From a candidate division LCP-89 bacterium B3_LCP (GTDB lineage Bacteria > Electryoneota > B3-LCP), in assembly GCA_005223185.1 (NCBI GenBank), contig NJBN01000004.1:62001-126000 (forward strand): DNA of 64,000 nt, given 5' to 3'. Shown here piece by piece: positions 11,044 through 45,305 of this stretch. Under the pieces are notes generated by a model. That model worked only from the letters and a program-made list of their open reading frames with translations, had not been told where the DNA came from and searched no databases. The number at the start of each line of letters is the position of its first letter. Position 1 is the first letter of the stretch. The position numbers and the translations under genes were made by a program.

Positions 11044-11118
11044 GGGGCCGTAGTTCAATTTGGTTAGAATGCCGGCCTGTCACGCCGGAGGTCGCGGGTT
11101 CGAGTCCCGTCGGCCCCG
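11044..11118 (+). tRNA. tRNA-Asp (GTC)
   Basis: A full cloverleaf: acceptor GGGGCCG (11044-11050) pairs with CGGCCCC (11111-11117), discriminator G at 11118, anticodon stem CCGGC/GCCGG around loop CTGTCAC with anticodon GTC, and T-arm GCGGG-TTCGAGT-CCCGT. The 3' CCA is not encoded. The 3' part of the gene is the integration target of the element that follows: its last 47 bases lie inside the 50-bp direct repeat, so the left copy is the intact gene. Confidence 0.96.
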
Positions 11119-11121
11119 CAA
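11072..11121 (+). repeat. attL: 50-bp direct repeat, 3' end of tRNA-Asp
   Basis: Bases 11072-11121 are identical to 44709-44758. The repeat starts at the 5' side of the anticodon stem and runs three bases past the discriminator. Flanking bases differ (G before here, A before at the other end; CTG after here, AGA after there). This is the usual outcome of tyrosine-integrase insertion into a tRNA gene. Confidence 0.9.
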
Positions 11122-11237: not shown

Positions 11238-12254
11238 TTACCCATGACATGTTAAACGTTCTGCAACTCGCCTAAGATCATCACCAACTGAGTGTAAATA
11301 AATTTGTGTTGTGGTGATTTTTAAATGTCCCATGAAGTCCTTAACCTGATGTATAGGAACCCCTTGATTTACAAGATCGGTTGCAACTGTATGCCTGAGC
11401 GAGTGAAGATGAAGTTCAGGTCGCAGCTTGGCTTTCTTTGCATATCGCCGAAACAACGCGCTCAACCAGTCTGGACTATATTCGAAGAGTTTCGGCCTTG
11501 ATCGATCCAGAGCTGAAAGCAATTGCCAAAGTTCAATGTTTATGGGTATCTTTCGAATCCTATGTGTTTTGGTCTGCTGAACATTTATCACTTTATTATC
11601 CAAGTCTACATCAGACCATTGGAGGCTAATGATTTCAGCTCTTCGCATTCCTGTGAGTAAAGCGAACCGAAAGACCTGTTCATGTTTTGGATCCTCAACG
11701 ATAGATGCCAAGAATCTCACTTTTTCTCCCGGTGTTAAACAAAGCGGTGCCTTCTGCTGATTGTCGGCTGGGATCATTCCCTTTTGCCTTAAGGGATTTG
11801 ATCTCAGGTATCTAACGCCTGGTTTTTCACACGCCCATCCAAAGGCAGTACGAATCGATCTCAGCCTTATAGATGTTGTTGCTGGTTTAACTCTTTCCAT
11901 TAGGTAATTTCTATATTTCACCGCAGTCTTTTGGTTTATTGTATCGAGTTTGCAATTACCTAAGAATTGCATTAAACCGTTAAGAGCAAAGATATCTATA
12001 CCAACTGTTTCTTCCGATTTACCGATACGTCTCCGATCTTCTTCGTATACCAGGATGAACTCAGAAAGCATTATTGGCTTTATTTCTTCGATGGGTTCCA
12101 GGCCTAATGCAATCCGGGTTTGTTCATCCTCAAATTTGCGTAAAGCAGCAGTTGCTAGCTTCTTATCACCGGTCTTGGTTGACTTCATCTTACGTTGGCC
12201 ATCATCAAGCCAGGTGATGTACCACCGTTTATTTCTTTTGAACAAAGATGCCAT
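11238..12254 (-). CDS. int: Tyrosine recombinase/integrase of the element
   Basis: A 338-residue site-specific recombinase. N-terminal AP2-like arm-binding region (FKRNKRWYITWLDDGQRKMKS), SAM-like core-binding domain (about 60-150), and catalytic domain with R204/R205 (TGMRRAEI), H284-x2-R287 (HSLRH), H310 (GHLKITTT) and the nucleophile Y319 (QIYLHS). The set is complete, so it should be active. The start has a strong AAGGAGGT site. It is the gene nearest the attachment site and reads toward it, the standard arrangement for tRNA-targeting islands. It would insert and excise the 11,122-44,758 element at tRNA-Asp. Confidence 0.95.
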   Translation of the reverse strand: MASLFKRNKRWYITWLDDGQRKMKSTKTGDKKLATAALRKFEDEQTRIALGLEPIEEIKPIMLSEFILVYEEDRRRIGKSEETVGIDIFALNGLMQFLGNCKLDTINQKTAVKYRNYLMERVKPATTSIRLRSIRTAFGWACEKPGVRYLRSNPLRQKGMIPADNQQKAPLCLTPGEKVRFLASIVEDPKHEQVFRFALLTGMRRAEIISLQWSDVDLDNKVINVQQTKTHRIRKIPINIELWQLLSALDRSRPKLFEYSPDWLSALFRRYAKKAKLRPELHLHSLRHTVATDLVNQGVPIHQVKDFMGHLKITTTQIYLHSVGDDLRRVAERLTCHG

Positions 12255-42186: not shown

Positions 42187-42781
42187 TACAGACGCCTTTA
42201 TAAAGCTTGGGATTAGCGGCTTATTTAATGATACTTTAGACTTGCTCAATATAGATTTGAATGAGTGCGGTAGGTTACCAGCTCTAACATACATGCTTCG
42301 AAAGGGAAGTGTCCCACGATTGTTTGGTGTGGATTTATGTAATAAATTAATTCCGTTAGCGGAATCAATTCCTGTTTTGGATCAGCCAAGAGATAGTTGG
42401 CTCGACAAACTGAAAGATGTACATGATATCGATCCTGGTGAGGCACAAATAATAGCAGTAGCTGCAGAATCCAGACTATTAGTTATCACTGGGGATAAGC
42501 GCGCTTTGCTTGCGTTAAAGAGTATTGCTAATGTTGCGACTGTACTCGCCGGACGAATAATCACGATTGAGGCTATATTAATTTTAATGTGTGATCAGTT
42601 CGGGCAAGAATATGTAAGAGAACGCGTCAGAGTAATATCCTCTTTTGATACAATGATCGAAGTCTGTTTTTCGACAGGAAATCCGGAACCTCGAGAGGCG
42701 CTACTTTCATATTACCAGAATCTTGTAGTTGAAGTTGACCCCTTAATTCTGTGGAATCCCAGCCTAATAGGTGAAGCATGA
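42170..42781 (+). CDS. PIN-like nuclease-domain protein
   Basis: 203 residues from the ATG at 42170, which lies inside the end of the ImmA/IrrE gene. The start MQLLIDTDAFIKLG (D6, D8), the middle DPGEAQIIAVAAESRLLVITGDKRAL (E91, D109) and spacing fit a PIN domain, a magnesium-dependent ribonuclease fold used by toxins and tRNA/rRNA nucleases. It is longer than typical VapC toxins (about 130 residues), and there is no small antitoxin-like partner. Coupling to an ImmA/IrrE peptidase and a beta-family protein suggests an effector in a defence cassette. Confidence 0.72.
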   Translation: MQLLIDTDAFIKLGISGLFNDTLDLLNIDLNECGRLPALTYMLRKGSVPRLFGVDLCNKLIPLAESIPVLDQPRDSWLDKLKDVHDIDPGEAQIIAVAAESRLLVITGDKRALLALKSIANVATVLAGRIITIEAILILMCDQFGQEYVRERVRVISSFDTMIEVCFSTGNPEPREALLSYYQNLVVEVDPLILWNPSLIGEA

Positions 42782-43836
42782 ATTTCGATTCTAACCATTA
42801 TGTGTCAATATTAAAGGTCAAACAAGGCGAGAAAAAGGCGCTACAATCCATTTCTCCACCATTAAAATCCTACCTCACACCAATGTTGGAGTTTGTTGAA
42901 CGGAAAAGCGGTAGTATTGATGATCATTTAAATACAGCTTTTAATGATCTAGCTGAATCAGTTCAAGGTTACTCTCGCTGTTTCATTGATCTGCTTGAAT
43001 TAGCATCAGATGGTCCCCAAGTTGCAAAAAATATCTTGGAGAGAGCAGGGAAGGAACGCATTGTATTTACACCAGTTACTGGCATAAGCCGAACTGCGGA
43101 CGTCGCAGCAGTGCTAAATCATAGAACTAATGGAATAGCGATTCGACTAACCAGACAAGACTTCGAAGAAGGCTCTCTTAGACAAAATCTTAAGAAATTT
43201 ATAAACCATAATATACTTTCAGTAGAAGAAACCGACCTGGTAGTTGACATCGGCTCTGTTGAAGATCTAATAGAACATGGAGTGAAACATCTAGCAGAGG
43301 CTTTTTTAGCTGAAGTGCCTGATCCTCAATTATGGCGAACTTTCACTATTACAGGCAGCAGCTTCCCACAAAGTATGGGAGTGGTTGATCGGCATTCGTT
43401 TAAGAATGTAGCAAGATTGGAATGGAAAGTTTGGAGAAATTCTTTATACGCTAATCGACTAAAGCTAAACCGTCTTCCAACTTTCAGTGACTGCGCTATT
43501 CAGAATCCAATTGGTGTTGAAGGTTTTGATTTCCGTATACATCAGGTTTCACCATCAATTCGTTACACTTCGGGGGAGGATTGGTTGCTAATAAAAGGTG
43601 AAAGCAATTCGCGTGTTCTACCTTCAACTCAGTTTCCCGCATTAGCAAGTCGACTCGTTTATGGGAATCTCAGCGATCAATTCAGAGGTGAAAGTCATTG
43701 TGAAGGATGTGCTATGGTTAAAAAAGCTGCCGATGGAGTGAAAGGTTTTGGTTCAGCCACGAAATGGCGTCTTATCGGTACAATTCATCATATTACGACG
43801 GTTGTTGAAGAGCTCGCGTCATTACCCTCTCCTTGA
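42778..43836 (+). CDS. Beta-family (sce7725-like) protein
   Basis: 352 residues, starting in the ATGA overlap with the PIN-like gene. The N-terminus HYVSILKVKQGEKKALQSIS...LTPMLEFVERK and C-terminus GEDWLLIKGESNSRVLP...GNLSDQFRGESHCEGC...GSATKWRLIGTIHHITTV match the beta-protein family (also called sce7725 family), known from phages and mobile elements but of unknown biochemical function. Members are commonly found beside sce7726-family genes, as here: the next gene, convergent, overlaps the 3' end by 44 bases. Cytoplasmic. Confidence 0.83.
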   Translation: MNFDSNHYVSILKVKQGEKKALQSISPPLKSYLTPMLEFVERKSGSIDDHLNTAFNDLAESVQGYSRCFIDLLELASDGPQVAKNILERAGKERIVFTPVTGISRTADVAAVLNHRTNGIAIRLTRQDFEEGSLRQNLKKFINHNILSVEETDLVVDIGSVEDLIEHGVKHLAEAFLAEVPDPQLWRTFTITGSSFPQSMGVVDRHSFKNVARLEWKVWRNSLYANRLKLNRLPTFSDCAIQNPIGVEGFDFRIHQVSPSIRYTSGEDWLLIKGESNSRVLPSTQFPALASRLVYGNLSDQFRGESHCEGCAMVKKAADGVKGFGSATKWRLIGTIHHITTVVEELASLPSP

Positions 43837-44708: not shown

Positions 44709-44758
44709 CCGGCCTGTCACGCCGGAGGTCGCGGGTTCGAGTCCCGTCGGCCCCGCAA
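44709..44758 (+). repeat. attR: 50-bp copy of the tRNA-Asp 3' end
   Basis: Identical to 11072-11121. It covers the anticodon arm to three bases past the discriminator; the D-arm and 5' acceptor strand are missing, so it is not a functional tRNA. This is the original 3' end of the chromosomal tRNA-Asp before insertion. Confidence 0.9.
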
Positions 44759-44788
44759 AGAGGCTTATCCTTTGGGTACAGCCTCTTT
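44757..44788 (+). terminator. Probable original terminator of tRNA-Asp
   Basis: AAAGAGGCT (44757-44765) pairs with AGCCTCTTT (44780-44788), immediately after the displaced tRNA end and 20 bases before the GIY-YIG gene. Confidence 0.6.
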
Positions 44789-44807
44789 CTGTATAGGGAT
44801 CAAAACT

Positions 44808-45074
44808 ATGCCCTACTGGACATATGTGTTGAAGAGTAAATCGGATGGTAAACTCTATATTGGGTCAACCGCGGATTTGGAAAGACGATTAGAAAGACAC
44901 AATTCGGGCCGGGTTACAAGCACAAAGGGTGGTGTACCTTGGGATATCATAGGTCATTTCGAGCATAAGGATAGAGCGCAAGCGGTTCGAATGGAAAAGA
45001 AATTGAAGAGTTGGAAAAATCCCAGTAAAGTAATCGCATTTTTAATAGAGATAGGAAAAAGCAAAGAAGATTAG
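44808..45074 (+). CDS. Small GIY-YIG nuclease-domain protein
   Basis: 88 residues from the ATG at 44808. GIY-YIG core: TYVL (Y6) and LYIGS (Y18), the Arg helix ERRLERHN (R27, R30) and the metal-binding Glu in RMEKKLKSW (E63). It is the single-domain UvrC N-terminal/YhbQ-like type, a DNA endonuclease fold; natural target unknown. The stop TAG is formed by the first bases of the following tRNA-like copy, so gene and tRNA sequence abut without a gap. It lies just after the displaced tRNA-Asp end. The position suggests a tRNA-linked mobile nuclease. Confidence 0.85.
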   Translation: MPYWTYVLKSKSDGKLYIGSTADLERRLERHNSGRVTSTKGGVPWDIIGHFEHKDRAQAVRMEKKLKSWKNPSKVIAFLIEIGKSKED

Positions 45075-45140
45075 TTCAATTTGGTTAGAATGTCCCGACA
45101 AGTCGGGAAGGTCGCGGGTTCGAGTCCCGTCGGCCCCGCA
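45072..45140 (+). pseudogene. tRNA-Asp-like copy, lacking 5' acceptor strand, altered anticodon arm
   Basis: 45072-45092 equals tRNA-Asp positions 8 onward (11051-11071), and 45109-45141 equals its variable loop to 3' end (11089-11121). The seven 5' acceptor bases are missing, and the anticodon arm is replaced by TCCCGACAAGTCGGGA, a 6-bp hairpin with a 4-base loop, so no anticodon can be presented. It is therefore not a working tRNA. Confidence 0.85.
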
Positions 45141-45165
45141 AATCCCCAGTTCGCTGGGGATTTTT
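45141..45165 (+). terminator. Intrinsic terminator after the tRNA-like copy
   Basis: AATCCCCAG (45141-45149), loop TTCG, CTGGGGATT (45154-45162), then T through 45165. A textbook stable-loop terminator. Confidence 0.82.
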
Positions 45166-45182
45166 GTTCAGGTGTTTTAATT

Positions 45183-45305
45183 ATGCCTTATTGGACATAC
45201 ATGTTGAGAAGTGAATTGGATGGTAAGCTCTATATGGGTCAATATGTGACAGGTTCGGCAGACAAATTGTGGCGGTCAATTTTGTCCGACAGTTTTGTAC
45301 AATGA
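45183..45305 (+). pseudogene. Truncated second GIY-YIG gene
   Basis: From the ATG at 45183, MPYWTYMLRSELDGKLYMG matches the first 19 residues of the intact GIY-YIG protein at 44808 (MPYWTYVLKSKSDGKLYIG). Then the sequence changes to unrelated GQYVTGSADKLW and stops at 45305. The catalytic Arg and Glu are lost. It is the remnant of a second [tRNA + GIY-YIG] unit. Confidence 0.82.

Follow-up and report, generated by a model that had tools for sequence, protein, structure and literature searches.

What is a small nuclease gene doing inside a run of tRNA-Asp pieces? In the 64,000-nt stretch of candidate division LCP-89 DNA analyzed here (the window), a gene for a GIY-YIG nuclease ends within a tRNA-Asp copy that has a hairpin where its anticodon arm should be, and the start of a second GIY-YIG gene lies just beyond. 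The original prediction, made from the letters alone, was a small selfish unit that homes to tRNA 3' ends with its nuclease and carries a tRNA end to rebuild the target. We compared the locus with tRNA-linked GIY-YIG genes in other genomes, and with known mobile systems.

The window locus and the island that split it

A small GIY-YIG/tRNA unit is present in the window in one and a half copies. Its features are as follows.

11044-11119, + strand: intact tRNA-Asp (GTC), the original neighbor of gene 1, now separated from it by an island
44709-44758, + strand: attR of the island, a 50-bp exact repeat of the tRNA-Asp 3' part (core 11072-11121)
44808-45074, + strand: GIY-YIG nuclease gene 1, 88 aa, intact (PF01541, E 2.7e-15)
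45072-45140, + strand: broken copy of tRNA-Asp, starting at tRNA nt 8 and reaching the 3' end
45093-45108, + strand: palindrome TCCCGACAAGTCGGGA, 16 nt, with 7-bp arms and a 2-nt centre
45143-45166, + strand: terminator-like stem with a T run, 3' of the broken tRNA-Asp
45183-45305, + strand: remnant of a second GIY-YIG gene (gene 2), with an ATG at 45183 and an unrelated frame after about 20 codons
45081-45305, + strand: read-through ORF, reading VAGSSPVGPAN from the tRNA T-arm and running into the gene 2 remnant

Gene 1 keeps the catalytic residues, with Y6, Y17, G19, R27, H31 and E63 invariant in alignment A1. Its TAG stop (45072-45074) is formed by nt 8-10 of the broken tRNA-Asp. This copy lacks both the 5' acceptor strand and the anticodon arm. 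It is 86% identical to the intact tRNA-Asp over nt 8-77, and its 3' part is identical. The palindrome TCCCGACAAGTCGGGA exactly fills the slot of the 17-nt anticodon arm CCGGCCTGTCACGCCGG, and a near-identical palindrome occupies the same slot in tRNA-Asp copies of other genomes. The gene 2 remnant shares 70% identity with gene 1 over its first 20 residues (genome-wide E 2.7e-4). Every element that had been described in the window was thus present, including the TAG stop in the tRNA copy, the hairpin and the cut second start. The frame at 45,081 does read VAGSSPVGPAN through the T-arm, and the ORF it opens is an artefact frame of the type found in databases. With Rfam, the intact tRNA-Asp was the only match in the window. 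A similar terminator immediately follows tRNA-Asp in a relative of the same family (G003, L207), so the stem at 45143-45166 is probably the ancestral tRNA-Asp terminator.

One element turned out to be something else. The displaced tRNA-Asp end at 44709 had been taken as a component of the unit. However, a tyrosine integrase gene (11238-12254; PF00589, E 2.3e-30) adjoins the intact tRNA-Asp, and together with the 50-bp repeat this identifies the 44709 tRNA end as the attR of an integrase island, outside the GIY-YIG unit proper. The island (11122-44708, 33.6 kb) encodes the tyrosine integrase, a primase-like protein and a type I restriction-modification set (HsdR, HsdM, HsdS). Before it arrived, 44709-44758 was the 3' part of the intact tRNA preceding gene 1, and the order was tRNA-Asp, gene 1, broken tRNA-Asp, terminator, gene 2 remnant. 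The island later split the tRNA-Asp/gene 1 locus, using the same tRNA.

Related integrases lie behind tRNA-Asp in two family relatives (G003, L212; G004, L211), and a partial tRNA-Asp was also seen in G004 (L214). The tRNA-Asp gene in the window's family has been struck by both islands and GIY-YIG units. At the right end of the window's island, a Beta_protein family protein (42778-43836; PF14350, E 2.4e-54) stands amid small genes of unknown families, and the genes around it are possibly a defence cluster.

Linkage to tRNA genes across bacteria

If the arrangement were chance, GIY-YIG genes should not be enriched beside tRNA genes, and this was looked for in three samples. In the first, 55 of the 99 genomes searched at the protein level had matches, and the DNA context was examined for 88 matches. 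An adjacent same-strand tRNA was found for 22 of them, including most of the closest relatives. The second sample comprised 79 loci of named GTDB genomes, selected solely by protein sequence (four-row alignment scan). The hosts include Patescibacteria lineages, Bacteroidota, Ignavibacteriota, Balneolota, Chlorobiota, Calditrichota, Planctomycetota (Scalindua among them), Omnitrophota and Elusimicrobiota. Here the enrichment was strong: a same-strand tRNA adjoins the GIY-YIG gene in 63/79 loci. Within the stretches searched (up to about 8 kb), 77 of 93 tRNAs had their midpoint no more than 500 nt from the start of the GIY-YIG domain, and all 77 were on the same strand. The single opposite-strand tRNA lay more than 1 kb off. 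The third sample, drawn around genome G046, gave the same pattern. A few opposite-strand tRNAs at 0.3-0.8 kb were seen outside the second sample (L012, L042, L244), and each of these loci also has a same-strand neighbor. Nearly every tRNA isotype is represented among the linked loci, and the unit occurs in at least a dozen bacterial phyla. Cultured carriers include Robiginitalea marina, Christiangramia sediminis and Roseivirga thermotolerans. Since scores of genomes share the anatomy described below, the arrangement in the window is more than chance.

Anatomy of the unit

The unit measures roughly 0.35-0.45 kb and its GIY-YIG gene encodes 80-100 aa. The gene lies on the same strand as one intact tRNA, usually a few to about 200 nt away. 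Of the 85 rows in which an intact tRNA adjoins the gene (L006 and L127 are a single locus), 72 also have a second, partial copy of that tRNA, generally on the opposite side of the gene. The left partial copy usually begins at tRNA nt 1 where the intact tRNA is downstream, and the right partial copy usually reaches or nears the 3' end where the intact tRNA is upstream. Many partial copies are only a 5' or a 3' piece. About half of the loci have the intact tRNA downstream and a broken copy that is the 5' part, which contradicts a unit limited to tRNA 3' ends.

The coding frame and the tRNAs often run into each other. In 26 loci the stop codon of the frame lies within the downstream tRNA, mainly as a TAG near nt 8 or 21. 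Of the 57 loci with an upstream tRNA, 29 have a frame that extends back into it without a stop, which bears out the view that the N-terminal extensions of many database GIY-YIG proteins are translated T-arms.

Apart from the GIY-YIG gene, the roughly 0.4-kb unit contains no gene in the window and the other loci examined, and no integrase lies between the two tRNA copies. A domain search of the 88-aa protein returned only PF01541 and an overlapping PF10544 match, with no recognizable DNA-binding domain separate from or behind the GIY-YIG domain. The nearest solved relatives are 1zg2 and 1ywl (UPF0213), followed by SLX1 chains.

The source of the partial copy was assessed by comparison with the other tRNAs of the set. 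In 47 of 50 loci, it matches the host's own tRNA above any other tRNA of the same isotype. This suggests that the unit duplicates the resident tRNA, or is homogenised with it, and that the tRNA end is not imported. A unit that carries a tRNA end to rebuild its target is therefore unlikely.

Lineages, empty sites and decay

A tree was built from 100 tRNA-linked proteins (83 columns, few strong branches). Changes of tRNA isotype on this tree numbered 43, compared to 68-78 with shuffled labels. Changes of host phylum, scored for the 53 rows with a named phylum, numbered 30, compared to 30-35 when shuffled. The protein lineages therefore track the tRNA and hardly the host, as expected if isotype-specific lineages cross phyla.

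Presence of the unit is sporadic when filled and empty loci are compared. The filled tRNA-Asn locus of G138 consists, from left to right, of a palindrome-bearing copy, the intact tRNA, a GIY-YIG gene that carries a nonsense codon, and a partial copy. In its congener G148, the same flanks (84% and 83%) enclose a single tRNA-Asn, and this one pair of congeners gave an empty site with both flanks on one contig. Another congener, G114, has the upstream flank of G138 and a single tRNA-Asn. In the window's own family, G002 and G005 have a tRNA-Asp with no GIY-YIG gene behind it in the stretch examined.

Close pairs of the nuclease gene showed dN of 0.08-0.10 and dS of 0.7-1.4, and low dN relative to dS indicates that the protein is under purifying selection. 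The conserved catalytic residues and the low dN/dS both favor the proposed selfish unit. Several copies contain stop codons. A selected protein together with stop-bearing copies is what is expected of invading, decaying elements, and the decayed copies likewise favor the proposed selfish unit. Tandem copies were found in the window, in G001 and in G129. In G001, another LCP-89 genome (L006), the unit at tRNA-Asp has three tandem palindrome-bearing tRNA-Asp pieces and no island there. In G129 (C232:2500-3049), two GIY-YIG genes with identical scores lie 319 nt apart.

Phage-borne spread was considered and rejected. There were six weak matches among 50,697 phage records, four of them unannotated, and one locus among 2.9 million viral contigs. 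The unannotated Staphylococcus and Listeria phage records may be host DNA.

Palindromes in place of hairpin arms

Perfect inverted repeats with arms starting TCC and ending GGA were scored, and the reversed type (GGA...TCC) was used as the control. Within 150 nt of tRNA-linked genes, TCC...GGA palindromes occur at 1.61 per kb compared to 0.072 per kb further off, an increase of about 22-fold. The reversed control showed no difference (0.064 and 0.067 per kb).

The palindromes in the partial copies are short and GC-rich, and they often take over a whole hairpin arm, mostly that of the anticodon. Between two tRNA-matching flanks, 74 palindromes could be placed (40 rows, of which two repeat the same locus). 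Of these, 33 exactly replace canonical positions 27-43, the whole anticodon arm, in copies of tRNA-Asp, Gly, Ala, Glu, Gln, Leu and Val from different genomes. Of the others, those in Asn, Met and Cys copies start after position 36-37, those in Pro copies take the place of the T-arm, and some lie in the D-arm. The hairpin noted in place of the anticodon arm thus stands for the window, but its generality had been missed, since replacement precise to the arm is a feature of many loci. In tRNA-Gly copies, the same slot holds TCCAACTGGA, TCCATTTGGA, TCCAAGTGGA, TCCAATTGGA, CCCGTACGGG or GCCGTACGGC, so that the sequence varies and palindromy is retained.

In two Scalindua species (L185, L200), the unit lies in tRNA-Val. 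The palindrome of L200 holds a further nested palindrome, as if palindromes insert into palindromes.

A proposed homing-like unit and the alternatives

We consider the element to be a tRNA-parasitic, isotype-specific, homing-like selfish unit, with a probability of about 0.6; cleavage, the repair route and the function of the palindrome are parts that we infer. The idea of a small selfish homing unit is kept for its tRNA linkage, empty sites and isotype lineages, and given up for the restriction to 3' ends and the carried tRNA end. The nuclease would break an unoccupied tRNA gene of one isotype, at the arm that is later marked by a palindrome. Repair from an occupied copy would then install the gene, and part of the host's own tRNA would be duplicated. 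With part of the tRNA duplicated, one functional tRNA would always be left, making the insertion nearly harmless. Expression is probably from the tRNA promoter, since the gene often begins within about 50 nt of the tRNA end, and the stop often comes from the downstream tRNA. The palindrome plausibly inactivates the spare copy, both as a tRNA and as a target.

Several points count against homing. Classical homing requires an occupied allele that is resistant. Here, the intact tRNA beside the gene should keep the target, yet it survives, and this is the hardest point for the proposal. In addition, the broken copy matches the host's own tRNA, so that repair from a foreign donor would have to be followed by homogenisation, or insertion would have to take another route. 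The protein also has no recognizable DNA-binding domain.

The main alternative is that the palindrome is the mobile part. By analogy with RAYT proteins and REPs, small GIY-YIG nucleases would act on TCC...GGA palindromes, with the tRNA-linked lineages as a specialized case where the palindromes end up in the hairpin arms of tRNAs. Some of the palindrome data point this way. In L018, palindromes are inserted within the D, anticodon and T loops. The core of the window's palindrome, CCCGACNNGTCGGG, has seven sites in the window's genome compared to none for the reversed control, mostly away from tRNA genes (sites include G000:C1:275154, C7:480734, C8:426, C1:170929, C9:78674 and C18:25306). Four of these were examined (L095-L098) and lie in intergenic-looking DNA, one of them beside the tRNAs of an rRNA operon. 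A second small GIY-YIG subgroup (YYVYILASKRNGTLYIGMTNDL...), which has no tRNA linkage (L017, L021, L032, L046, L047, L049, L062, L259), has GTCATTCCCGCG...CGCGGGAATCCAG-type palindromes on its flanks, often one per side in opposite orientation. This subgroup suggests that GIY-YIG genes are more widely tied to dispersed palindromes. Homologues without a recognized tRNA also have TCC...GGA palindromes at 0.90 compared to 0.10 per kb (reversed control, 0.11 and 0.08), but some of these loci do contain broken tRNA copies, and the enrichment there is therefore inflated. A palindrome-driven system would not predict a protein tree that tracks tRNA isotype, and the palindrome sequences vary between loci and genomes. 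We therefore regard a mobile palindrome as rather doubtful. A wider proposal, which we put forward tentatively and hold to be rather unlikely, is that small GIY-YIG nucleases and TCC...GGA palindromes together form an unrecognized mobile system across bacteria, a nuclease counterpart of RAYT/REP, whose tRNA-linked lineages would exchange whole hairpin arms of tRNA gene copies for such palindromes and spread by isotype across phyla.

The unit could also act at the level of RNA. The pseudo-tRNA would be a decoy or antidote RNA, and the GIY-YIG protein would act on the tRNA or on the pseudo-tRNA transcript, in the manner of an addiction module. Partial copies are often nearly unchanged in their tRNA parts and exchange the arm precisely at its base, as if an RNA fold were preserved, and the tRNA-Gly palindromes stay palindromic while varying. 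However, many copies are just a 5' or 3' piece that could not fold as a tRNA, and some palindromes have no centre or one of 2 nt, which is poor for an RNA hairpin. Furthermore, the nearest solved relatives are UPF0213 proteins and SLX1, a DNA junction nuclease, and we know of no GIY-YIG protein that cuts tRNA. An RNA-level unit is thus improbable.

Finally, a tandem left solely by tyrosine-recombinase islands at tRNA-Asp, with the GIY-YIG gene as cargo, fits the attL/attR island at the same tRNA in the window and the related islands in G003 and G004, but it was rejected as highly improbable: the gene is located outside the island, past attR, the unit also stands at the G001 tRNA-Asp without an island, and many other tRNAs have two copies about 0.4 kb apart with no integrase between them.

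If the homing-like reading is true, a widespread selfish element of less than 0.5 kb and one gene lives within essential tRNA genes of bacteria. Many partial tRNA genes would be readily explained by it, as would the GIY-YIG proteins that have translated tRNA arms at their N termini. Several questions would become testable: what confines a nuclease of about 85 residues to a single tRNA isotype, by what means a tRNA gene is invaded without loss of function, and what makes and keeps the exact palindromic arm swaps.

Comparison with known systems

Among open-licence papers, we found no report of a bacterial tRNA-linked GIY-YIG unit with partial, palindrome-bearing tRNA copies or isotype lineages. 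One of the closest known systems is SegB, a free-standing GIY-YIG homing endonuclease of T-even phages that is significantly linked to tRNA genes of many isotypes, with no isotype preference reported (PMC13096335). SegB is reported to act within tRNA-containing sequence and to drive tandem amplification of a tRNA-Tyr/segB segment (PMC13096335), and the tandems in G129 and G001 look like this amplification. Both systems have a free-standing GIY-YIG gene linked to tRNA genes of many isotypes. Unlike phage-borne SegB, the bacterial family is 80-100 aa long, is nearest to UPF0213/SLX1 and is nearly absent from viral collections. Its unit also abuts a partial copy of the same tRNA, and has arm-swapping palindromes and isotype lineages. 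With homing endonuclease genes in general, the bacterial unit shares a nuclease domain with its catalytic residues, a position in or beside the putative target, target-specific lineages found across hosts, and occupied and empty alleles. Phage-type GIY-YIG homing endonucleases have a separate DNA-binding region behind the domain, and none was recognized in the 88-aa protein.

Mitochondrial mobile ORFs resemble the unit in another way. They make gene hybrids in atp6 of Allomyces and in atp6, atp9, cox2 and nad3 of Glomus: a nuclease gene (GIY-YIG in Glomus atp9) enters an essential gene together with a duplicate gene end, and function is kept (PMC3630166). In the bacterial unit, the end of the target gene is likewise duplicated across the nuclease gene (72/85 rows). 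However, the new gene end of a mobile ORF is foreign, whereas the bacterial partial copy matches the host's own tRNA (47/50). The bacterial unit also differs in its tRNA targets, in a duplicated part that may be 5' or 3', and in the palindromes that mark the broken copy.

Small GIY-YIG proteins of the UPF0213/COG2827 type and SLX1 share the domain and are the nearest solved relatives. For the UPF0213/COG2827 type, no tRNA linkage or mobility is stated (PMC1564403); the unit shows both. As in REP/RAYT systems, short palindromes cluster around a gene for a small DNA-acting protein, but this protein is a GIY-YIG nuclease, not a Y1 (HUH) transposase, and the palindromes lie inside tRNA copies. Partial tRNA genes in prokaryotes have been ascribed to integrative elements and CRISPR activity (PMC9897764). 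Unlike integrative elements at tRNA genes, the unit is an insert of about 0.4 kb with no integrase, exchanges a tRNA arm for a palindrome, and may leave a partial copy that is the 5' part of the tRNA.
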